From: a virus
IMG/VR virus record: IMGVR_UViG_3300020472_000218
Location: 1 to 20,035 of that record
Reading direction: 5' to 3' (one strand)
DNA: 20,035 bases
The translations under genes and the position numbers were made by a program. Under the pieces are notes generated by a model, which was not told the origin of the DNA, made no database searches, and was given only the letters and a program-made list of their open reading frames with translations. The stretch's first letter is position 1. Each line of letters opens with the position of its first letter. Shown in pieces: positions 1-12,100 of the stretch.

Positions 1-16
1 ACAGTGGGGATTTTTT
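1..16 (+). terminator. Right arm of a rho-independent terminator cut by the window edge
   Basis: The window opens with a G-run (GTGGGGA) followed by six T, which looks like the 3' half of the C-run/G-run terminators found at 402-424, 840-862 and 1143-1164. The left arm is outside the window, so the hairpin itself cannot be seen. The placement, directly before an extended -10 promoter, matches the other three blocks. Confidence 0.5.
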
Positions 17-24
17 GCTATTAT
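16..24 (+). promoter_or_regulatory. Extended -10 promoter for the 45-aa/66-aa gene pair
   Basis: TGC followed by TATTAT lies directly after the T-run of the preceding terminator and is followed by AAAGAGT. The same arrangement recurs at 427, 865 and 1168. No -35 box is visible, since that position is taken by the terminator, so the TGn extension probably compensates. Transcription would begin near base 31, giving a leader of about 9 nt. Confidence 0.55.
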
Positions 25-39
25 TAAAGAGTCAAACAA

Positions 40-177
40 ATGAATTCTAAAATGTTCGTTGATCCACGTTTTGAAGAAGAAGCACTCGCCGCACTAATGG
101 AAGAGGCATTTTCACAAACCACGGAAGAGACCAAATTTGATGTTGATGCCTATTTCAATTCTGACATTGAATATTAA
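40..177 (+). CDS. Small acidic hypothetical phage protein (45 aa)
   Basis: I do not recognise this family. The frame runs from ATG at 40 to TAA at 175-177. The protein is acidic, with EEE, EE and several D residues, and has an Ala/Leu-rich segment (residues 15-24) that could form an amphipathic helix. It has no membrane segment. The ATG at 40 is chosen because it is the first in frame after the promoter; an internal ATG at 52 is an alternative. No Shine-Dalgarno sequence is visible and the predicted leader is very short. The stop is followed immediately by the ATG of the next gene (TAAATG), so the two are probably translated from one message. It lies in the accessory early-type block, where host-directed small proteins are common, but nothing in the sequence shows a role. 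Confidence 0.6.
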   Translation: MNSKMFVDPRFEEEALAALMEEAFSQTTEETKFDVDAYFNSDIEY

Positions 178-378
178 ATGAAATCCTTCCCATCCGTCAA
201 CCTTACTGATTTTCACATGACAAACTACCCTGCAAGCATCTACACTGAAATTGAAACATTTTGTAATGAAAATGAGTTCACAGTGGATTACTTCCTAAGT
301 GAGTTTGCTCGCCAGGAAGACCAGTTACAGAGACCTTTTACAGCATACCGTGGCAGGTCAGCACTAAACGACTGCTAA
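178..378 (+). CDS. Hypothetical small phage protein (66 aa)
   Basis: I do not recognise this protein. It starts at the ATG touching the stop codon of the 45-aa gene and ends at TAA 376-378, 24 bases before a terminator. Residues 20-50 (IYTEIETFCNENEFTVDYF) look helical and aromatic/acidic; the C-terminal part is more basic (YRGR). There is one Cys near residue 29 and a C-terminal Cys, and no transmembrane segment or signal peptide. The contact with the upstream stop and the shared promoter at 16-24 and terminator at 402-424 indicate a two-gene unit. The lack of a Shine-Dalgarno sequence fits translational coupling. Its function is unknown; small proteins in this setting often modulate the host, but that is only context. 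Confidence 0.65.
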   Translation: MKSFPSVNLTDFHMTNYPASIYTEIETFCNENEFTVDYFLSEFARQEDQLQRPFTAYRGRSALNDC

Positions 379-381
379 AGC

Positions 382-424
382 CAGTTCACAAAGTGTCCAC
401 TAAAACCCCCAAAGGGGTTTTTTT
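382..424 (+). terminator. Rho-independent terminator (cassette B) with upstream conserved box
   Basis: The hairpin arms AAAACCCC (402-409) and GGGGTTTT (414-421) are separated by CAAA and followed by a T-run. The A-run on the left arm could make it work in both directions. Just upstream is the box AGTTCACAAAGTGTCCACTAAA, nearly repeated at 821-842 and partly at 1133-1145, so the conserved unit is larger than the hairpin. Confidence 0.85.
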
Positions 425-426
425 AT

Positions 427-435
427 TGCTATATT
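427..435 (+). promoter_or_regulatory. Extended -10 promoter of the basic 117-aa protein gene
   Basis: TGC followed by TATATT (with TATTAT overlapping at 432-437) and then AAGAGT lies directly behind the terminator T-run. No -35 hexamer is recognisable because that position falls inside the terminator stem. It matches the promoters at 16, 865 and 1168. Transcription would start near 442, giving a leader of about 22 nt without a clear Shine-Dalgarno sequence. Confidence 0.6.
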
Positions 436-463
436 ATAAGAGTAAACAAACGAATCAATTCGT

Positions 464-817
464 ATGCCAGTTAAGTCAACACCCGTTTCAACTCCTACAA
501 AGGCAACAACCCCACGTAAGAGAAGAACCCGTAAGACTTCAACAACTGCAAAAGCAACAAAACCAGCAGTTAAAAAAACACCCGTTGCCAAAGTTACAGT
601 CACAACTTTCAAAAGTGGCAAGGTCGTTGCTAAGAAGACCACTCTTAAACGCCCTTCAACTGCCCGTCTTATCTCAACGGATCGTTATATCAAGGATATA
701 CAAACCCGTTGGGCAATCCACAATTTTGAAATTCAAGAGTTAATCTCTGATTTTATCAAAGGATTTGAGGCAGTGAAACCCTACCACGCTAAAATGGTAA
801 AAATGGTCAACAAGTAG
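464..817 (+). CDS. Histone-H1-like basic protein (117 aa)
   Basis: The first 65 residues are low-complexity and strongly basic, built from K, R, T, P, A and V, with the patch PRKRRTRK (17-24) and PAVKK/PVAKV repeats resembling the Lys/Ala/Pro-rich tails of histone H1 and bacterial H1-like proteins. Residues 70-117 are ordinary and look helical (IKDIQTRWAIHNFEIQELI). The simplest reading is a nucleic-acid-binding protein with a disordered tail and a small folded or oligomerising C-terminal domain. It is transcribed alone, between its own promoter (427-435) and terminator (840-862). The start at 464 is the first ATG in frame; no Shine-Dalgarno sequence is seen. Known: phages use small basic proteins to bind host or phage DNA. 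Inferred: that this one does so. A ribosome- or RNA-binding role is equally possible. Confidence 0.75.
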   Translation: MPVKSTPVSTPTKATTPRKRRTRKTSTTAKATKPAVKKTPVAKVTVTTFKSGKVVAKKTTLKRPSTARLISTDRYIKDIQTRWAIHNFEIQELISDFIKGFEAVKPYHAKMVKMVNK

Positions 818-819
818 AC

Positions 820-862
820 CAGTTCACAAACTGACCACTAAACCCCCCACGGGGGTTTTTTT
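820..862 (+). terminator. Rho-independent terminator (cassette C) with upstream inverted repeat
   Basis: AAACCCCC (840-847) pairs with GGGGGTTT (851-858) across a three-base loop, followed by a T-run to 862. Upstream, CAGTT-CACA-AACTG (820-833) is a perfect small inverted repeat, and TGGTCA (805-810) can pair with TGACCA (832-837), so a second structure may precede the terminator. The block closely matches cassette B. Confidence 0.88.
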
Positions 863-864
863 AT

Positions 865-873
865 TGGTATTAT
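865..873 (+). promoter_or_regulatory. Extended -10 promoter of the 76-aa gene
   Basis: TGG followed by TATTAT and AAGAAAGT forms an extended -10 element right after the terminator T-run. No -35 element is visible. Unlike its siblings, this unit has a good ribosome-binding site, AAAAGGAG at 886-893, five bases before the ATG. Confidence 0.62.
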
Positions 874-898
874 AAGAAAGTAATCAAAAGGAGCACTT

Positions 899-1129
899 AT
901 GCAACTTCGCCCTATCGCAGCAAACCAAACTGAACTAACACTCAGTAACGGAACTCAGGTATTTTTCTCTTATAGAACACCCGTTGCCGCATACTTAGCA
1001 GATAAGGCAAAATACGTAAGAACTGCGACCAAGTGGAGCACCACAACCTCACGCCACATCAACAAATGGTTAGAGGGTGTAAATGCTGACACAGTGGACC
1101 AGGAAATGCTTGACGCACTGACCGCTTAA
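899..1129 (+). CDS. Conserved small phage protein of unknown function (76 aa)
   Basis: The start is well fixed: AAAAGGAG lies five bases before ATG 899, and the frame ends at TAA 1127-1129. The sequence alternates short predicted strands (residues 1-30, with ELTLSNGTQVFFSYRTPVAAY) with a helical C-terminal half. The block TKWSTTTSRHINKWLEG (residues 43-59) resembles small proteins I recall from marine T4-type phages, where the phrases VFFSY..PVA and TSRHINKWL recur; this is memory of the family, not a search. No catalytic motif, membrane segment or Cys is present. It is transcribed alone between promoter 865-873 and terminator 1143-1164. Function is unknown. Confidence 0.75.
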   Translation: MQLRPIAANQTELTLSNGTQVFFSYRTPVAAYLADKAKYVRTATKWSTTTSRHINKWLEGVNADTVDQEMLDALTA

Positions 1130-1132
1130 GAA

Positions 1133-1164
1133 ACTGTCCACTAAACCCCCTAACGGGGGTTTTT
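1133..1164 (+). terminator. Rho-independent terminator (cassette D)
   Basis: AAACCCCC (1143-1150) pairs with GGGGGTTT (1155-1162) around the loop TAAC, followed by T residues. The preceding ACTGTCCACTAAA matches part of the conserved box in cassettes B and C. It starts only about 13 bases after the 76-aa gene. Confidence 0.87.
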
Positions 1165-1167
1165 ATT

Positions 1168-1176
1168 TGGTATATT
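1168..1176 (+). promoter_or_regulatory. Extended -10 promoter of the nucleotidyltransferase-like gene
   Basis: TGG followed by TATATT and AGAAGAGT lies directly behind terminator D, in the same layout as the promoters at 16, 427 and 865. Transcription would begin near 1183, so the small hairpin GTGG-GAAA-CCAC (1183-1194) would sit at the 5' end of the transcript. Confidence 0.58.
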
Positions 1177-1182
1177 AGAAGA

Positions 1183-1194
1183 GTGGGAAACCAC
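1183..1194 (+). promoter_or_regulatory. GAAA-loop hairpin in the 5' leader
   Basis: GTGG and CCAC flank a GAAA tetraloop 26 bases before the ATG at 1221. GNRA loops are unusually stable, so this short stem could protect the 5' end or affect translation. The leader lacks a Shine-Dalgarno sequence. A four-base-pair stem can arise by chance. Confidence 0.35.
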
Positions 1195-1220
1195 CCAAAG
1201 CATTTTTTACGATTTTTAAC

Positions 1221-2120
1221 ATGACAAAAAACATTCATTTAGAGCACCCCGAAGATAGCATCCTTGACGGAACCCTTTCTGTCTTGGGTGCTTTTTTAAA
1301 TGTGTTTAGTCTCTCAGTTAAGATTGACGGTGCACCCGCTATCGTATGGGGCACTAACCCTATGACGGGAAATTTCTTCGTTGGCACGAAGTCCGTTTTT
1401 AATAAGAACAAAATCCGTATATGTGAAACCCAAGAACAGATAAGAGAATGGTATACGGGCACACCCCTTGAAATGATCTTAGGGTCATGCCTGTGTAACC
1501 TGCCACATACTGACCGAATATTTCAGGGTGACTTTATCGGGTTTGGGGGTGAGTGTGATTATACACCCAACACCGTGACCTATTCATTTGGTCAACCCGT
1601 AGCGGAGGAAATCATCATGGCACCTCATACAGAATATTTGGCAACCGATGATTTAAGAAATGCGGTTGCCCGTCCTATAAAGTCGTTTGCTGATTTCCCT
1701 GCCACTAACCCCGACGGGTCATATTTCGTTAAGTGGATCATGCCTAAGGCGTTCGGAGATTTCGCAGGGTTAGAGGATAGCATTGCGGATGCGGCATGGT
1801 TAGCACGTGGCGTGATATTCCCAAGTCCTAAGGCAGCAAAAACTGTGAAGCGTTTGCTTAATGATCACATTCGTGAGGGCATGGAAGTTGACCCCGAAGA
1901 GTGGGAGAATCCTGCGTTGATTTCTCTCTGGTTAGCAGTTAAGAAAATCAAAGAGGATGCCATATGGTTATCATATCACATCGGATGCCCTGCTGCATAC
2001 ATTGACCAAAAACGCATAGACTGTGAAGGGTATGTGATGCACACTCATGAGGGGTCATGGAAATTGGTTGACCGTGAGGAGTTCAGTTATGCTAATTTCA
2101 AAATGGGCGTGGGTGCTTAG
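1221..2120 (+). CDS. Putative covalent nucleotidyltransferase (RNA/DNA ligase-like, 299 aa)
   Basis: The protein shows in order the motifs of the superfamily that includes DNA ligases, RNA ligases and mRNA-capping enzymes. Motif I is K34-I-D-G37 in VKIDGAPAIVWG; K34 would be the lysine that carries the AMP or GMP. GTKSVFNK (55-62) lies where motif Ia is expected, FQGDFIGF (101-108) resembles motif III, EGYVM (269-273) motif IV and WKLVDREEF (280-288) motif V. About 160 residues separate motifs III and IV, partly helical (183-250). No OB-fold or zinc domain follows motif V. Phage proteins with K-x-DG-(A/S)-P and G-T-K-x-x-F-N are known to me mostly as uncharacterised. The start at 1221 is the first ATG in frame after the promoter; no Shine-Dalgarno sequence is seen. 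RNA ligase or repair is the leading guess; a self- or protein-modifying enzyme, or an inactive homologue, is possible. Confidence 0.7.
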   Translation: MTKNIHLEHPEDSILDGTLSVLGAFLNVFSLSVKIDGAPAIVWGTNPMTGNFFVGTKSVFNKNKIRICETQEQIREWYTGTPLEMILGSCLCNLPHTDRIFQGDFIGFGGECDYTPNTVTYSFGQPVAEEIIMAPHTEYLATDDLRNAVARPIKSFADFPATNPDGSYFVKWIMPKAFGDFAGLEDSIADAAWLARGVIFPSPKAAKTVKRLLNDHIREGMEVDPEEWENPALISLWLAVKKIKEDAIWLSYHIGCPAAYIDQKRIDCEGYVMHTHEGSWKLVDREEFSYANFKMGVGA

Positions 2121-2149
2121 ACAGTCCATTCGTTCGTGAATCAGACAGT

Positions 2150-2174
2150 GCCCCCGTTTATGGGGGCGTTTTTA
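2150..2174 (+). terminator. Rho-independent terminator after the nucleotidyltransferase-like gene
   Basis: GCCCCC (2150-2155) pairs with GGGGGC (2162-2167) around GTTTAT and is followed by GTTTTTA. It closes the last cassette unit. Unlike the others it has a different loop and no promoter block immediately behind it. Confidence 0.85.
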
Positions 2175-2243
2175 TGGGGGGCGGTTTAAAATCAATGGAT
2201 CCCTTTAAGCTATAAACGACCCAGATCGACCTTTCAATATCAA

Positions 2244-2275
2244 TCTATATAAAAAAATTTTTCACTATATAAAAA
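2244..2275 (+). promoter_or_regulatory. Possible promoter region: two CTATATAAAAA boxes 20 bp apart
   Basis: CTATATAAAAA occurs at 2245-2255 and again at 2265-2275, exactly two helical turns apart, with a run of A and T between. Either copy could act as a -10-type element for the small genes starting at 2296. No matching -35 hexamer is obvious and the match to the late TATAAATA motif is imperfect. The rest of the gap 2121-2295 holds only the terminator at 2150-2174. Confidence 0.35.
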
Positions 2276-2295
2276 CAACGGTAGGGTTTACATCG

Positions 2296-2466
2296 ATGCA
2301 AAAAAATTCGCCAGATTTATTTACGACCATAGAGGTCGATCCTCTAACAGGGGAGTATAAAACAATTATTCCAGAATGGATTATTAATGAAGAGGGGTGG
2401 TATGAGGGCACTGAACTTCATTTTAATATTGAAGATAAGGAAATTATCATAAAGGAAAAGGAATGA
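2296..2466 (+). CDS. Small conserved phage protein, AbrB-like sequence pattern (56 aa)
   Basis: The frame runs from ATG 2296 to TGA 2464-2466. The protein begins with a strand-like segment, TTIEVDPLTGEYKTIIPEW (10-28), then GWYEGTEL (34-41), and ends with an Ile/Lys/Glu-rich strand (IIIKEKE). The order 'strand, IPEW, GW-x-EGTEL-x-F, ED-x-EIIIK' resembles small phage proteins I recall and superficially the swapped-hairpin AbrB/SpoVT DNA-binding fold (IP-x-x-... G-x-x-x-G-D/T-x-(L/V)). The resemblance is by eye, so function stays open; candidates are a transcription factor or antitoxin-like protein. The start follows a weak TAGGG about 10 bases upstream. Its last bases overlap the next start (ATGA), so the two are translated together. 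Confidence 0.65.
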   Translation: MQKNSPDLFTTIEVDPLTGEYKTIIPEWIINEEGWYEGTELHFNIEDKEIIIKEKE

Positions 2467-2630
2467 GAACTTACCACATATACTTAAACGAAAGGTGTCT
2501 ATTTAAAAATCTTGATGAAGATGAGTTTAATGTTATATGGGGAAGAATATACCATTCTTATTGGGATGGACTAACATATTCAGAAGTTGTAGAGATACCC
2601 GATGAAAAATACATCGAATCATCTTATTGA
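2463..2630 (+). CDS. Small conserved phage protein (55 aa), related in layout to the 58-aa protein at 3441
   Basis: It starts in an ATGA overlap with the 56-aa gene, with a good ribosome-binding site (AAGGAAAAGG) inside that gene, and ends at TGA 2628-2630. The layout is M-R-TYHIYLN, then RCLFKNLDEDEFNVIWGRIYHSYW: a beta strand, a 'LF-x-x-L-x-x-x-EF' turn and an aromatic helix. The same pattern (TYSILIKG...VFSDLTQFEY) opens the 58-aa protein at 3441, so the two may be distant paralogues. The function is unknown. The -35 box of the consensus promoter at 2627 overlaps the stop codon. Both features suggest tight packing of a conserved small-gene cluster typical of cyanophages. Confidence 0.7.
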   Translation: MRTYHIYLNERCLFKNLDEDEFNVIWGRIYHSYWDGLTYSEVVEIPDEKYIESSY

Positions 2631-2655
2631 CAATTGCTATATAAACTGATATAAT
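2627..2655 (+). promoter_or_regulatory. Perfect sigma-70 promoter (TTGACA - 17 bp - TATAAT)
   Basis: TTGACA at 2627-2632 and TATAAT at 2650-2655 are both exact consensus with the optimal 17-bp spacing. The -35 box overlaps the TGA of the upstream gene. Transcription would begin near 2662, 16 bases before the ATG at 2678. The spacer also holds TGCTATATA (2635-2643), resembling the extended -10 elements of region 1, so a second overlapping start is possible. Host RNA polymerase should read this promoter strongly and early. Confidence 0.85.
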
Positions 2656-2677
2656 TGAAGTGTAATTAAAAGGCATT

Positions 2678-3439
2678 ATGGCTAAAGGATTTACAGTAAA
2701 AGCAAATACTCCTACTAAAAAGAAAAAAGACCAACCAGAGTGGGATTATGATAAAGCAAAGGAGATGGTCAAAGGAAAGACTGTTGTATTTTGTCTACCT
2801 GGTAGGGGAGTATCATACGTTTACTTAAAGAACTTTGTTCAACTTTGTTTTGATTTAGTTCAAGCAGGTGCAAGTATACAGATTTCACAAGACTATTCAT
2901 CAATGGTGAATTTTGCCCGTTGTAAGTGTCTTGGTGCTAATGTTCTTCGTGGTCCTGATCAATTACCTTGGGATGGTAAGTTAAAGTATGATTATCAGTT
3001 ATGGATTGATAGTGATATAGTCTTTAATAGTGATAAGTTCTGGCAATTAGTCCTTATGGATCAAGATATTGCTTCAGGTTGGTATTGCACAGAAGATGGA
3101 AGAACTACATCAGTTGCACATTGGTTAGATGAGGAAGACTTCTCTAAGAATGGTGGAGTTATGAATCACGAAACTATTGATAGTATTGATAAGCGTAAGA
3201 GTCCTTTTACTGTTGATTATGCAGGATTTGGTTGGTTATTAATTAAGCATGGTGTATGGGAACATGAAGAACTTAAGTATCCTTGGTTTGCTCCTAAGAT
3301 GCAAGTCTTTGAATCAGGTGCAGTTCAGGATATGTGTGGAGAAGATGTATCGTTCTGTCTCGATGCTATAGCAGCAGGTTTTGAAATTTGGTGCGATCCA
3401 CGTATCAGAGTTGGACACGAGAAGACAAGGATTATCTAA
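2678..3439 (+). CDS. GT-A glycosyltransferase-like protein (253 aa)
   Basis: The start is supported by AAAGG five bases upstream and the consensus promoter at 2627-2655. Residues 1-25 are Lys/Thr-rich and probably disordered. From residue 33 the protein follows the GT-A pattern: strand TVVFCLP (35-41), a helix with NFAR (78-81), strand and metal-binding DSD (111-113) in YQLWIDSDIVF, then GEDVSFC (221-227) and a closing D240 with RVGH (244-247). In GT-A enzymes the DXD binds the metal and nucleotide sugar, the later ED is near the catalytic base, and a His near the end can complete the metal site. No signal peptide or membrane segment is present. The acceptor is unknown: phage DNA bases, virion proteins or host glycans are options. 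It precedes two small genes, the first after a one-base gap. Confidence 0.72.
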   Translation: MAKGFTVKANTPTKKKKDQPEWDYDKAKEMVKGKTVVFCLPGRGVSYVYLKNFVQLCFDLVQAGASIQISQDYSSMVNFARCKCLGANVLRGPDQLPWDGKLKYDYQLWIDSDIVFNSDKFWQLVLMDQDIASGWYCTEDGRTTSVAHWLDEEDFSKNGGVMNHETIDSIDKRKSPFTVDYAGFGWLLIKHGVWEHEELKYPWFAPKMQVFESGAVQDMCGEDVSFCLDAIAAGFEIWCDPRIRVGHEKTRII

Positions 3440-3440
3440 G

Positions 3441-3617
3441 ATGAAGACGGAAACTTACAGCATCTTAATAAAAGGTAAGGAAGTTTTCTCAGATCTTACT
3501 CAATTTGAGTATATGGAGCGTATGGAGGACTTGTCAATTGAATACTATCAGACAGGTTCTCCACGTCCAGACGACATCACTACTAAAATTAACGGAGAAC
3601 TTATAGGTAATGGCTAA
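3441..3617 (+). CDS. Small conserved cyanophage-type protein (58 aa)
   Basis: The start at ATG 3441 follows the upstream TAA by one base and is preferred over an in-frame ATG at 3381, which lies inside the glycosyltransferase gene. AAGGA (3426-3430) lies about 10 bases upstream. The protein is a strand (ETYSILIKG), a turn (VFSDLTQFEY), a helix (MERMEDLSIEYYQTG) and a short tail, SPRPDDITTKINGE. I recall small proteins with '(E/D)L-(S/A)-IE-(F/Y)-YQTG-x-P' near the baseplate genes of cyanophages. It resembles the 55-aa protein at 2463. Function is unknown. Its stop overlaps the next start by eight bases. Confidence 0.75.
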   Translation: MKTETYSILIKGKEVFSDLTQFEYMERMEDLSIEYYQTGSPRPDDITTKINGELIGNG

Positions 3618-3756
3618 GGCAACAACAGGAGCATGGGGTAGAGAAGAAATTGAATCGACCCCGAAAAAGACTCGTCAGGGAAACGGAAAGCACACAAAAT
3701 ACGCTTCTACCTCCCGTAACTCGGCTCGAAAACCCTCTCGTGGTCAAGGAAAATGA
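3610..3756 (+). CDS. Small Gly/Lys/Arg-rich phage protein (48 aa)
   Basis: The frame begins at ATG 3610, overlapping the end of the previous gene by eight bases, and ends at TGA 3754-3756, five bases before a terminator stem. The protein is basic and probably disordered: it begins MAKATTGAWGREEIE, continues PKKTRQGNGKHTKYAST and ends SRGQGK. I recall this opening (AKATTGAWG-R) from small proteins of unknown function in cyanophages; the call rests on that memory and on the tight packing. A nucleic-acid-binding or virion-packaged role would fit the charge but is not shown. GGAG (3594-3597) upstream is a possible ribosome-binding site, with re-initiation after the preceding stop also likely. Confidence 0.75.
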   Translation: MAKATTGAWGREEIESTPKKTRQGNGKHTKYASTSRNSARKPSRGQGK

Positions 3757-3760
3757 TCTC

Positions 3761-3786
3761 AGCGTCTCGAAAGAGACGCTTTTTTA
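3761..3786 (+). terminator. Strong rho-independent terminator with GAAA tetraloop
   Basis: AGCGTCTC (3761-3768) pairs perfectly with GAGACGCT (3773-3780) around GAAA, followed by six T. It ends the glycosyltransferase/small-protein unit and separates it from the late promoter at 3807. Confidence 0.95.
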
Positions 3787-3806
3787 TTGTTTTGTTAAGA
3801 AAGGAG

Positions 3807-3814
3807 TATAAATA
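3807..3814 (+). promoter_or_regulatory. T4-type late promoter TATAAATA in front of gp25
   Basis: TATAAATA is the exact -10 motif used by the T4 late sigma factor gp55, and late promoters of cyanophages share it. It lies 21 bases after the terminator hairpin and 21 bases before the ATG of gp25, the expected position for a leader of about 14 nt. No -35 hexamer at the right spacing is seen, as expected for late promoters. It should drive gp25, gp6 and the giant gene. Confidence 0.85.
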
Positions 3815-3835
3815 AATTCAGTAAAGTATTGACAA

Positions 3836-4237
3836 ATGCCTGTACAGAGGATATCTAGATCATTTAAAGATATTAGTTTGTCCTTTAAACCACATCCCGT
3901 GACAAAGGATATAACAGTTCTGAGGAATGAAGACGCAATTAAAAGGTCTGTAAGGAATATTGTGCAAACTATTCCTATGGAACGTTATTTTAACTCTGTT
4001 TTAGGATCTGAGGTACGTTCATTACTCTTTGGATTCGTTGATTTTGGTACTGCATCTGCTATTGAACGCCAAATTCGTATTGCAATTGAAAACTATGAGC
4101 CAAGAGTCGATAATTTACAGGTAAATGCTACTCCTAGACCAGAAAGAAACGAATTTTCGATAAATATTTTATTCGATATCGTTGGACAGCAGTTTCCTAC
4201 ACAAGAATTTACGTTTATTTTAGAAGCAACCAGATAA
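3836..4237 (+). CDS. 25: Baseplate wedge subunit gp25 (133 aa)
   Basis: This is the gp25/GPW lysozyme-like baseplate protein, the sheath initiator at the inner baseplate in T4-type phages. The length (133 aa) matches T4 gp25 (132 aa). The family's EPR core motif is present at residues 88-90 in IENYEPRVDNLQV, preceded by the helix SAIERQIRIAI (75-85). RNIVQTIPMERYFNSVLGSEV (40-60) corresponds to the family's 'L-x-T-x-x-G/P-x-R-x-(N/F)-x-x-(F/L)-G' helix, and the C-terminus forms alternating strands (FSINILFDIV, EFTFILE). It starts 22 bases after a TATAAATA late promoter; no clear Shine-Dalgarno sequence is seen. Its stop is followed by one base and the start of gp6, the usual order 25-6 in cyanophages. 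Confidence 0.95.
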   Translation: MPVQRISRSFKDISLSFKPHPVTKDITVLRNEDAIKRSVRNIVQTIPMERYFNSVLGSEVRSLLFGFVDFGTASAIERQIRIAIENYEPRVDNLQVNATPRPERNEFSINILFDIVGQQFPTQEFTFILEATR

Positions 4238-4238
4238 T

Positions 4239-6164
4239 ATGCCTTTTACTAAGTTCCAAAACCTTGATTTCGATCAAATAAAGACCCAAATTAAGTCATA
4301 TCTACGTGCAAATTCAACTTTTACGGATTTTGACTTTGAAGGATCTAATTTTTCTGTCTTAATCGACACTTTAGCATATAATACGTATATTACGGCATTT
4401 AATTCCAATATGATTGTCAATGAATCCTTCTTGGATTCGGCAACATTAAGGGAAAATGTTGTATCTTTAGCTAGAAATATAGGATATGTTCCACGCTCTA
4501 GAACTGCTTCTACTGCTAATGTGACATTTACTGCAACTACAGGTGCTAATACCCCTTCTTTGACCTTACAAGCAGGTTTGGTAGCGGTAGGTGATTATGA
4601 TGACACTACATATACATTTTCTATACCTGAAACAGTTACTGCAACCACTACTCATACATATGATGGTGCAGGTAATGTTGCTAGTAGCACTGCTACTTTT
4701 GGAACATCAGACGTTCCTATTAAAATACATGAAGGAACATTCTTATCTACAGTCTTTGAAGTTGATGCATCATTAGATCAAAAATTTATACTGAATAACT
4801 CATTTATTGATACCTCAACTTTAGTTGTATATGTTTCAGATGATCCAAATAAACTAGGTAGAGAATATAGACAAGTTGATAATATTTTACAAGTTAAAAA
4901 AGATTCTGAGATCTTCTTAATGCAGGAAGTACAGGATGAAAAATATGAACTAATCTTTGGTGATGGTTTATTTGGTAGGAAAATACCAAATGGATATTAT
5001 ATAACATGTAATTATATTGTTACTAATGGTAAATTAGGTAACGGTCCTTCAAGATTTTCATTCTCTGGTAGTTTTGCTAATTCTGATGGTGCTTTAACAA
5101 CATTAACAGCAGCACCAACAGTTAATACAATTACATCTGCTTCTAATGGTGGTGACATTGAATCATTAAATTCTATTAAATATTTTGCACCTAGACTGTA
5201 TTCTGCACAAAGTAGAGCAGTTACAAATAGAGATTATGAGGCAATTATACCTACAATTTATCAAAATACTGAATCTATTTCAGTAATTGGGGGTGAAGAG
5301 CTTGATCCACCACAATTTGGGACAGTTTTTATCTCAATTAAACCAAAAAATGGTGAATCTATCTCTGATTTTGATAAAACACAGATTTTATCCAAATTAA
5401 AGAACTATACACTTACAGGCATTAATCAAAAAATTGTCGATTTACAACTATTATATGTTGAGTTAGAAAGTTACATTTATTATAATACTTCTCAGGTTTC
5501 TAATGTAAATGATCTGAAAAGTAGAGTAATGAATGGTTTAACTACATATTCCACATCCAAAGATGTGAATAAATTTGGTGGAAGATTCAAATATAGTAAA
5601 GTTTTAAATGTAATTGATCAAGTTGATGAAGCAATTACATCAAATATTACTAGAGTTAAAATTAGAAGAAATTTAGCTGCTCTTTTAAACCAATATGCAC
5701 AATATGAGTTGTGTTTTGGTAACGAATTTAATGTAAAAACTGAAGGATATAATATTAAGAGCACTAAATTTAGAATAGAGGGTGAAAATAGTGAAGTTTT
5801 TATAACAGATACGCCAAATGCTGATAAAAAAACAGGTGTTATTTCTATAGTCAAATTAGATCCTACAAATAATACTGATATTATTGTTGCAAAATCAGCA
5901 GGAACTGTAGATTATATTAAAGGTGAAGTTAATTTATCAACTGTTAACATAACTTCAACTGATAAACCAAATAATATCATTGAAATTCAAGCATATCCAG
6001 AATCAAATGATGTTATTGGGTTAAAAGATCTATATCTCGATTTTAGCATCGGAAATAGTTCAATAAATATGGTAAAGGATACTATTACTTCAGGCGAACA
6101 AATATCTGGAGTTGGTTATAAAGTAACTTCTAGTTATAGCAACGGAGAAATAACAAGGAACTGA
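4239..6164 (+). CDS. 6: Baseplate wedge subunit gp6 (641 aa)
   Basis: The protein is close in length to T4 gp6 (660 aa) and sits directly behind gp25, as in T4-type phages. gp6 dimers link neighbouring wedges into the inner baseplate ring, and the core belongs to the baseplate J/gp47 family. The N-terminal 100 residues (LDFDQIKTQIKSYL, then NFSVLIDTLAYNTYI and LARNIGYVPRSR) are the conserved gp6 start. FGDGLFGRKIPNGYYI (about 240-256) and APRLYSAQSRAVTNRDYEAI (about 316-335) are typical of baseplate J-type proteins, the latter with the RAVT-x-x-DY signature. Residues 500-641 form a beta-rich tail. The start one base after gp25 without a clear Shine-Dalgarno sequence suggests coupling. The TGA is followed by one base and the giant gene. 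Confidence 0.95.
   Translation: MPFTKFQNLDFDQIKTQIKSYLRANSTFTDFDFEGSNFSVLIDTLAYNTYITAFNSNMIVNESFLDSATLRENVVSLARNIGYVPRSRTASTANVTFTATTGANTPSLTLQAGLVAVGDYDDTTYTFSIPETVTATTTHTYDGAGNVASSTATFGTSDVPIKIHEGTFLSTVFEVDASLDQKFILNNSFIDTSTLVVYVSDDPNKLGREYRQVDNILQVKKDSEIFLMQEVQDEKYELIFGDGLFGRKIPNGYYITCNYIVTNGKLGNGPSRFSFSGSFANSDGALTTLTAAPTVNTITSASNGGDIESLNSIKYFAPRLYSAQSRAVTNRDYEAIIPTIYQNTESISVIGGEELDPPQFGTVFISIKPKNGESISDFDKTQILSKLKNYTLTGINQKIVDLQLLYVELESYIYYNTSQVSNVNDLKSRVMNGLTTYSTSKDVNKFGGRFKYSKVLNVIDQVDEAITSNITRVKIRRNLAALLNQYAQYELCFGNEFNVKTEGYNIKSTKFRIEGENSEVFITDTPNADKKTGVISIVKLDPTNNTDIIVAKSAGTVDYIKGEVNLSTVNITSTDKPNNIIEIQAYPESNDVIGLKDLYLDFSIGNSSINMVKDTITSGEQISGVGYKVTSSYSNGEITRN
6155..6159 (+). promoter_or_regulatory. 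Ribosome-binding site of the giant gene
   Basis: AAGGA lies six bases before the ATG at 6166, inside the end of gp6. It fixes the start of the giant gene and suggests independent initiation as well as coupling to gp6. Confidence 0.7.
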
Positions 6165-9100: not shown

Positions 9101-12100
9101 AAGGTAGAAATCATCTTCGTTCTGTTAAAATAGTAGATTCTGGATCTGGATATACTAATAGAAAACTAGATGTATATCCTGTAGGAATTTCTACTGTGAG
9201 AGATAGTGTTCATTTTAATAATCATGGATTTAAAAATGGTGAATTTATAACATATGCAACTACAGGATCAGTAATAAGTGGATTGGTTACTACAAATCAG
9301 TATAAAGTTATTGAAATAGATGATAACGAATTTAGATTAGCTAACGCAGGTGCTGGAGGAACAAATACTTCAGATTTTGATAGAAATAAGTATGTTAAAT
9401 TTGAAGCAATTGGAAGTGGTGTTCATAGTTTTGCATATCCACCTATCGAACTTGTTGTTGATGCAAAATATGCTAAAGTTGCAGTAGCATTAACAGAATC
9501 TATTACTGTAACTCCTGTAGTTCGAGGTAGTATTAAAGAGATATATGTTTATGATGGTGGAACTGGATATGGATCTACTGTATTAAATTTTGAAAAAAAT
9601 CCAATAGTTACGATAGTAAATGGTGAATTAGCCGAATTAAAACCTATTATATCGAATAAAAAGTTATATCATGTTGATATTCAGAACCAAGGGGGAGGAT
9701 ATACTGCACCTCCAGACTTAGTAGTGGAAGGAGATGGTTTTGGTGCTGAAATTAGGGCAATAATAGAAAATGGTGTAATAGTTGATGTTAAAGTTCTTAA
9801 CTCAGGTACTGGATATAGTGCAGATAAAACTTCAATTAAAGTAACTTCTCCTGGAGTTGAAGGATCATTAATATCTAAAGTTAGGCAATTATCAGTAAAT
9901 AATTATAGATTTGCTGACAAATTAGATACAAGATATCATTCTGCAACATTATCTGAATCTAAAAATGAAACCAATCAATTAAAATACTCCTTTGTAGGAT
10001 ATGCAACTGATTTTGGTAAGACTTATTTTAATGATCCTAATCCTATTGATGGTCATTCCTCAATTATAGGGTGGGCATATGATGGTAATCCAATTTATGG
10101 TCCATATGGATTTACTGATCCATTAGATAGTAGTTCATCTATAGTTATTTTAAAACCTAGTTATAAGAGAAATAATTGGTCTAGAAATGAAGATACTGGT
10201 GCAATTGTTGGTGTTGTTAGTGATAGACCAATTGGATTTAATATTGGATTCTTTGTTGAAGATTATAATTATGATGCATCTGGAGATCTTGATGAAAAAA
10301 ATGGAAGATATTGTAGAACTCCTGAGTATCCTAACGGAACATATGCATATTTTGTTGGAGTAACAACAAGTTCAACAACTGGTAAGTTAGTTCCAAAATT
10401 CCCATATTTTATTGGAGATAGTTATAGATCTATTCCACAATCACAAAATTTACTTGGAGAAGATCAAAAAACTTTCAATTTTAATGGAAAGTCTTTAGCA
10501 AGAAATACTTTCCCATATAAAGTTTCTGATGATTTTGCAGATAATGATTTCTTAGTTGAATCTAATGAATTAGTTGATCAAATTACTGTAATTGATTCTA
10601 TAACTAAAGGATCAGTTGATTCTTTCCAAATTCTTCAAGTTGGTTCAGGATATAAGGTGGGTGAAGTTGCTGGTTTTGACAATACTGGAACTAATGGTGG
10701 TGGTTTAAGTGCATCAATTAAAAGAATTACTGGAAAGGATATTTTTGATATAAACACTACAATTGAAAAATATCAAGATGTTGTATTTAAATGGAATAAA
10801 CCAGATGAAGTTGTTGGATATATTTCAACATCACATTCCCTTATTCAAAAAGATAATATTACAGTTTCTGGTCTTTCAACATCTATAAATTCTCTTTCAT
10901 TACAAAATCATAATATTGGAATAACTACTGGTAAGACTTACTTATATAAAGCTCTTGGTATTAGTCAAGGTTCCACTGTTGGAGTAGTTACTGACATATA
11001 TGTTGCAAATATACCAGAACAAGTTTCTGTTGGTAGTACTATAGAAATAGGAACTGAAAAATTATCAGTTTTAAATTTATTTGAAGATAGGAATATATTA
11101 CGTGTTAAAAGAGGTGAAAGTGTAGGTATTCATACATTATCTACAGAAGTTAGAACAGTACCTAGTTACTTTACAATCCCTGTTAAAACCCCTTATTTTG
11201 AGTCTAGAATCAACGATAAAGTATATTTTAATGCATCCCAAGCAATTGGTGTTGGAACGCAGGTAGGAATCGCTACAACTGTAGGTGTTGGTGTAGGCGA
11301 AACAACTAATTGGGTCTCAATACCATCTCAAAGTATCCATATTCCAAATCATCCATTTAAGCATAATCAAAAAGTTTCATTTAATATTCCTTCTGGGGCT
11401 AATCAAGTAGCAATATCAACATTGCCTGGATTAGTATCCCCTTGGAATTTTGGTGTTAGTGGTGGAAGTAAAGACGTTTATATAATTAATAAATCTAAAG
11501 ATTACATTGGATTTACTACTATGCTTGGAATATGCACTAGTGGTGTATTTTTCCATACTAGTGGATCTAATAATCCCCAATATTCATTTGAATCATCATA
11601 TACTCAAGTTACTGGTAAAGTTGAAAAAATTACTACATCTGTATCAATATCAACATCTTTAACAACATCTCATGGAATGTTGAACGGTGATGTAGTTGGG
11701 TTTACTGTTAAATCAAATAGTACAGTTGGAATAGGAACTTCTACTGCTATTAAAGTTAAATTTAATGATAATGATAAAAAACTTTTAGTTAATCCTATTA
11801 CATTTGCTGCTGCTAATGTTACTTCAGCATCAAATTCAATAAATTTAGAATTACATAATCTTAAAAGTGGTCAAAAAATATTCTATGATGGTGGTAATAG
11901 TCAAATAGTTGGATTATCTACAAGGTCATATTATGTTTATAAAGTAGATGATGATAATATTAAATTAGGAGAAAGTCGTAAAGATGTAATTAATGATCCA
12001 CCAATATTAATAAATTTCACATCTACTGGAGGTTCTGGGCAAGAGTTATCTTTAATTAATCCACAAATAGAAGTAATTAGAAATAATAATTTAAAATTTG

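Follow-up and report, generated by a model that had tools for sequence, protein, structure and literature searches.

A dyad operator at fixed spacing from the −10 element marks a putative activator-dependent promoter class in T4-like cyanophages

At its left end, the stretch of viral DNA analyzed here (the window, a complete viral record of 20,035 bp) carries four repeated blocks that we read, with a probability of roughly two in three, as promoters of an activator-dependent class in which an intrinsic terminator is packed between an operator and the −10 element. The core of this class would be a 24-bp dyad that stands at a fixed distance from the −10 element and recurs in T4-like cyanophages; we infer that the protein reading it is a phage-encoded activator.

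The relatives of the window are T4-like cyanophages (Kyanoviridae and kin), with matches to Synechococcus and Prochlorococcus myoviruses. Baseplate genes of the gp25 and gp6 type lie at 3836–6164, and the sequence beyond the blocks consists mostly of late structural genes; the record is a genome fragment. For the block region, the closest relative is the single-cell contig AG-345-L05 (MH319756, locus L004), which is 72% identical across positions 1–1298.

Four blocks at the left edge of the window

The first-pass annotation had described four repeats of a stem, a T-run and a −10 element, and these are real: three blocks are complete and one is cut by the left edge of the window. In each complete block, the C/G stem, the T-run, TGn-TATWWT and the start follow one another in the order proposed, at the slightly corrected coordinates 382–442, 820–880 and 1123–1183, with the edge copy at 1–31. 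Placing +1 at 7 nt past the −10 element yields predicted starts at 31, 442, 880 and 1183, which are the figures given before and agree with the Y/A-R-T initiator of the relatives. No −35 hexamer is found in the window blocks, again as described, and the stem sits at the −35 position. The upstream box that three blocks were said to share, CAGTTCACAAA.TG.CCACTAAA, is exact in two of the three complete blocks, whereas the third reads CGCTTAAGAAACTGTCCACTAAA, carrying CGCTTAAGAAA instead of an exact CAGTTCACAAA. A degenerate dyad fits all three complete blocks; its axes (388.5, 826.5 and 1129.5) all lie 53.5 bp upstream of +1, and the dyad together with TGn/−10 at the observed spacing occurs three times in the window versus 0.004 times expected (mean over dinucleotide-like shuffles of its first 1300 bp). 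The remainder of the 20-kb record, mostly late structural genes, holds no further copy of the block.

All of the following features lie on the plus strand. The edge-cut block 1 (1–31) retains the right stem arm, the T-run, TGn at 16–18, the −10 element TATTAT at 19–24 and the predicted +1 at 31, and has a complete homologue, CAAACTGTCCACCAAATCCCCCACAGTGGGGATTTTTTGCTATTATTAAAGAGT, in L004. Behind it lies a small gene (40–177) whose 45-aa product is similar to family F0, one of the gene families bordered by cassettes in relatives, and gave no match in searches of Pfam and PHROG. Block 2 comprises a predicted operator dyad (377–400; core CAGTT-CACA-AAGTG at 382–395, axis 388.5 at −53.5), an intrinsic terminator within the operator-to-−10 spacer (402–424; stem 402–421 plus T-run) and an extended −10 element (427–442; TGC and TATATT at 430–435, predicted +1 at 442), and is followed by a family F1 gene for a basic 117-aa protein (464–817). 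Block 3 is built likewise, with a predicted operator dyad at 815–838 (core CAGTT-CACA-AACTG at 820–833, axis 826.5 at −53.5), an intrinsic terminator within the spacer at 840–862 (stem 840–858) and an extended −10 element at 865–880 (TGG and TATTAT at 868–873, predicted +1 at 880); it precedes a family F4 gene (76 aa, phrog_5643; 899–1129), whose stop codon falls within the dyad of block 4. This last predicted operator dyad (1118–1141; core CGCTT-AAGA-AACTG at 1123–1136, axis 1129.5 at −53.5) has a weaker left arm and is followed by an intrinsic terminator within the spacer (1143–1165; stem 1143–1162), an extended −10 element (1168–1183; TGG and TATATT at 1171–1176, predicted +1 at 1183), a transcript leader (1183–1220) with a small hairpin, GTGG-GAAA-CCAC, at 1183–1194, and a family F2 gene (1221–2120) encoding a DUF6267 protein (PF19782, E = 6e-66; phrog_455).

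In relatives, the leader that separates block 4 from the DUF6267 gene is 110–141 nt long and folded, with GTGGAAGG...CCTTCCAC closing it and T-runs behind it (L004: 8129–8275; L139: 369; L145, minus strand: about 2830–2720). That of L004 folds at −43.5 kcal/mol, and the counterpart in the window is reduced to the 4-bp hairpin; it is possibly a small RNA or a structured leader. A promoter of another kind, a perfect TTGACA-17-TATAAT with TG, stands at 2627–2655 ahead of the gene at 2678 and differs from the block promoters.

Coupling of the dyad to the −10 element across cyanophages

Dozens of homologous blocks were found in public viral contigs and in a phage collection: further copies bordering small genes, which had been anticipated, are abundant in related phages. 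When these homologues are aligned, the C/G stem and the T-run are missing in many, with the upstream box and the −10 element retained. The consensus of the dyad is TGTGmCAsTT-N4-AAsTGkCACA, an imperfect palindrome of 24 bp, and the isolates share the succession of dyad, about 25 nt, tgcTATAAT and a Y-R-T initiator at the predicted +1. With an independent definition of the dyad, the spacing peaks sharply where the −10 element starts 33–36 nt past the second TG of the dyad, and the main spacing class puts the dyad axis at −53.5.

Twelve complete cyanophage genomes contain 3–18 core dyads each, versus 0–2 for the reversed pattern. Ten joined cyanophage genomes hold about 102 dyads, giving 205 oriented dyads when each is taken in either orientation; 60 of these are followed at 33–35 by a −10 element matching at least 5/6 of TATAAT, where about 3 would be expected from other offsets. 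At a threshold of at least 4/6, 14 complete genomes, several of which entered via cassette similarity, hold 103 dyad/−10 units, versus about 11 on average when other 3-nt offsets are taken and about 4 after shuffling; per genome, this background amounts to 0.2–2.2 units at other offsets and 0–0.6 in shuffles. Five of the phages were picked from the literature, independent of similarity, and their genomes contain 3 (Syn9), 7 (S-PM2), 7 (P-SSM4), 7 (P-HM2) and 4 units (S-RSM4). Syn9, S-H35 and S-CAM9 have just 2–3 candidate units apiece, some of them doubtful, and P-SSM4 has a high background at other offsets. An apparent absence of units from Syn9 proved to be a threshold effect: two good Syn9 units carry TATTCT.

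An unbiased set was obtained with the perfect dyad alone as the pattern, which in all viral contigs matches at least 120 stretches with at least 180 distinct dyads. Among the matches listed, 180 perfect dyads have 119 −10 boxes at offsets 33–35 versus 4.7 expected, and 80 of the 120 listed loci hold a unit, 74 of these 80 with cyanophage protein matches. Among bacteria and archaea (257 Gb of genomes), the same pattern matches 65 stretches, which display no −10 spacing peak. Three occurrences of the dyad are recorded here in their own right. The acidobacterial MAG Pyrinomonadaceae bacterium SSF56 contains six perfect dyads (L267, L276, L284, L296, L312, L315) that are not clearly coupled to a −10 element and may represent another system with a similar operator; the marine Flavobacteriales MAG TMED113 (L328 / G004), the exception to the lack of −10 coupling among bacterial dyads, has twelve dyads confined to a few contigs and mostly clustered on one, and probably includes cyanophage contigs that were binned into it; and L360 and L405 (IMGVR_UViG_3300008113_001711) carry tandem perfect dyads, many of them about 58 bp apart.

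The terminator is an optional part of this arrangement. A −10 element lies at 33–35 in 65 of 69 dyads with a terminator and at 33–36 in 55 of 88 dyads that have no stem of at least 5 bp. About half of the related copies have no terminator, even ahead of the same gene family: genes of families F3, F0 and F8 can follow a block with a terminator in one phage and a unit that lacks it in a second. The fused terminator–promoter of about 60 bp, initially taken as the defining unit, has to yield this role to the dyad and the −10 element at fixed spacing, which form the constant pair. A stem-loop described in S-PM2 at 11369–11391 (PMC4503421) sits within the spacer of the dyad unit at 11,350. The initial statement that a −35 is lacking holds for the terminator form, but terminator-less copies often have a weak one: a match to at least 4/6 of TTGACA with a 16–18 spacer occurs in 23 of 46 terminator-less isolate units, with about 5 expected. 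For this reason, the class is one in which the −35 is weak or absent rather than strictly missing, and, as the terminator-less units retain a weak −35, activator dependence may be less than full. Of 60 isolate units, 32 have an exact TGn.

The protein at the dyad and alternative readings

According to the mechanism that we propose, a dimeric protein would bind the dyad at −53.5 and contact the host RNA polymerase, which, equipped with the housekeeping sigma factor, would start at the −10 element, often extended by TGn. The dimer would aid this start, the −35 being absent in the terminator form and weak in the terminator-less form. The intrinsic terminator in the spacer would end the transcript of the preceding gene and, where genes are closely spaced, would be fitted between operator and −10 element: because a −35 is not needed, a terminator in the spacer would cost nothing, and because the terminator lies within the block, each small gene would become its own insulated transcription unit in about 60 bp.

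The origin of the protein can be approached through the hosts. Across 61 host-family cyanobacterial genomes, the dyad with 1 mismatch is not enriched, occurring 8 times versus 5 times for the reversed control pattern, with four of the eight in a single genome; this favors a phage-encoded protein. Alternatively, the phage could exploit a host transcription factor, as it does with PhoB or NtcA boxes. Such a factor could act immediately upon infection, and host PhoB does bind promoters of cyanophage S-PM2d (PMC10976474), yet single phage genomes have up to 18 cores against the 8 versus 5 found in all 61 host genomes, and the dyad differs from both a Pho box and GTA-N8-TAC, which leaves this possibility unlikely. 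For a phage regulator, core small protein families were listed from 10 genomes. The AbrB/MazE-like family phrog_661 is present in 12 of 12 genomes examined and in the window, where its gene (2296–2466, plus strand) encodes a small acidic protein. We regard it as a weak candidate and do not claim it as the regulator of the dyad: it is strongly acidic, weakly AbrB-like and, on paper, a poor DNA binder. Nor do we claim phrog_1308, which is HTH-like by eye and is missing in the unit-bearing P-SSM4.

The regulator might also be a repressor that shuts the genes off later in infection, as a palindromic operator at a fixed position suits any dimeric regulator and the −10 element is strong, with a weak −35 in the terminator-less units. 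We consider this similarly unlikely: the center at −53.5 lies upstream of the main polymerase contacts, which is unusual for repression, the spacing to the −10 element, constant within ±1 bp, points to polymerase contact, and the terminator form is entirely devoid of a −35.

PeSLs (promoter-early stem-loops) are small intergenic composites of terminator and promoter that occur in hyperplastic regions at the borders of exchanged genes. They have been described in T4-like phages (Arbiol 2010 and Comeau 2014, as cited in PMC4503421), and the blocks could be ordinary cassettes of this kind, a stem-loop terminator and a host-type early promoter retained for gene shuffling, in which the box would be merely a repeated sequence. 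As first annotated, the blocks are indeed repeated units in which terminator and promoter stand together at small-gene borders, and the accompanying idea that genes are exchanged at them is borne out by one clean replacement: over one gene and its block, as far as AGAGT, L004 and L009 show 87% identity; beyond this point lie two unrelated genes (families F11 and F3, about 200 bp each), and the match returns at AAACTGTCCAC of the dyad of the following block. Moreover, the gene ahead of family F0 varies by contig (F11, F3, F18, F20 or F38), and the blocks remain. With the same sequence at both ends of a gene, recombination can swap that gene between blocks. Frequent shuffling from block to block is, however, not seen: similarity is 81% among blocks before the same gene family, 77% among blocks in one contig and 75% among unrelated blocks, so that blocks mostly stay with their gene. 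That the blocks are nothing but such cassettes is rather improbable, since the box keeps its fixed spacing also where the terminator is absent and core replication operons share just the dyad code and the −10 element. In S-SKS1 (L006, 8090–11520), many small genes are split by near-identical CTTACTCATTCACTCACTAACTAACA spacers with no dyad, which is another repeated intergenic module.

Returning to the dimeric protein, we compared the two arms of the dyad. At the G/C position of the half-sites, 168 distinct boxes, pooled across related sequences with their kinship ignored, comprise 62 G-C, 56 G-G, 27 C-C and 23 C-G combinations (Fisher p = 1.0); the A/C position shows no dependence either (p = 0.12, with a trend opposite to that of pairing). 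The arms thus vary independently, which argues that each is read separately, as by a dimeric protein, and judged by its sequence variation the dyad is a protein operator and not a hairpin. An inverted repeat directly past stop codons would also suit a 3′-terminal RNA hairpin of the upstream transcript, whether as the second of two terminator stems or as a processing signal, but this reading is highly improbable and effectively ruled out by the lack of compensatory changes in the arms, with 83 of the 168 boxes (about half) mispaired in such a fold and the spacing from dyad to −10 element kept where the terminator is absent. A search of window positions 1–4000 against Rfam gave no match.

Downstream genes and comparison with known systems

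Units stand before the cobS-gp45-gp44-gp62-regA region in metaG-MbCM1 (125,041), P-SSM7 (131,227), P-RSM1 (107,940) and S-RIM50 (124,842), before the T4-GC146 peptidase gene just ahead of the cobS-regA region in metaG-MbCM1, P-SSM7, P-RSM1 and P-HM2 (125,045), before NrdB in metaG-MbCM1 (145,276) and before the gene that precedes nrdB in S-H35; the sites in S-RIM50 (cobS-regA region) and S-H35 (nrdB) fit the consensus more loosely than the 14-genome rule demands. Many further units lie in small-gene regions of ACG-2014f, P-SSM4, P-SSM7 and S-PM2, with hypervariable small genes downstream. The middle genes of T4 include those for the sliding clamp, the clamp loader, regA and ribonucleotide reductase. 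In cyanophage P-HM2, the ribonucleotide reductase genes are middle genes (PMC5082946). T4-like cyanophages are devoid of motA and asiA, and a review called their early/middle mechanism unclear (PMC2984593); earlier motif searches in cyanophages employed sigma70, late, Pho and NtcA models only (PMC3037559). On the basis of these sequence contexts, the promoter class is probably a delayed-early or middle one in phages without MotA and AsiA. Going further, T4-like cyanophages may have exchanged the MotA/AsiA switch for a dimeric activator encoded by the phage, which recognizes a palindrome of 24 bp at −53.5 and whose regulon comprises the replication operon, nucleotide genes and hypervariable host-takeover genes, a proposal that we advance tentatively and place slightly below an even chance.

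We found no earlier report of the dyad in the literature, leaving aside Arbiol 2010, Comeau 2014 and Doron 2016 (the Syn9 transcriptome), and the dyad switch is apparently both widespread in ocean cyanobacterial viruses and undescribed. T4-like cyanophages are among the commonest viruses of the ocean, and a two-armed docking site may explain the timing of their genes in the absence of T4's regulators. The fixed-spacing operator makes the early/middle question directly testable and would mark a regulon common to replication genes and small genes, many of the latter being likely host-takeover factors; if a phage activator did replace MotA/AsiA, the operator could serve as a tag by which host-takeover genes are listed across cyanophages.

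Among known systems, the T4 middle promoter combines a MotA box at −30 with a sigma70 −10 element that is often preceded by TGn (PMC2988021). It resembles the units in its phage-specific upstream element, its host −10 element, a weak or missing −35 and the downstream genes, which in cyanophages are counterparts of T4 middle genes, but its box is asymmetric, 9 bp long and located at −30, whereas the site described here is two-fold symmetric, 24 bp long and centered at −53.5. In the aligned units, a MotA box (TGCTT at −30, 12–13 bp from the −10 element) was sought and no strongly conserved −30 element was seen. At bacterial class I activator promoters such as those of CRP, the dyad is usually centered at −61.5. 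The units share with these a dyad operator upstream of the −35 position and a strict helical position, and differ in the center at −53.5 and in a dyad that marks no regulon in the hosts. PhoB and NtcA sites in cyanophages (PMC10976474, PMC3037559) are likewise regulatory boxes before cyanophage genes; they have another sequence and belong to host regulons, whereas the dyad appears phage-specific. There is also a resemblance in form to PeSL cassettes: the window blocks, like these, are intergenic stem-loop terminators fused to promoters (about half of the related units are not) and border exchanged genes, as seen for L004 versus L009 and for the neighbors of F0. They depart from PeSLs in having the dyad instead of the −35 of a sigma70 −35/−10 early promoter, in a 24-bp dyad that is fixed while the terminator is optional, and in a dyad promoter that would drive core replication operons as well. 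Terminator–promoter composites are thus already known as PeSLs; what would be new here is a dyad promoter of the putative activator type packed as a PeSL-like cassette, and the blocks illustrate that a promoter can accommodate a terminator.
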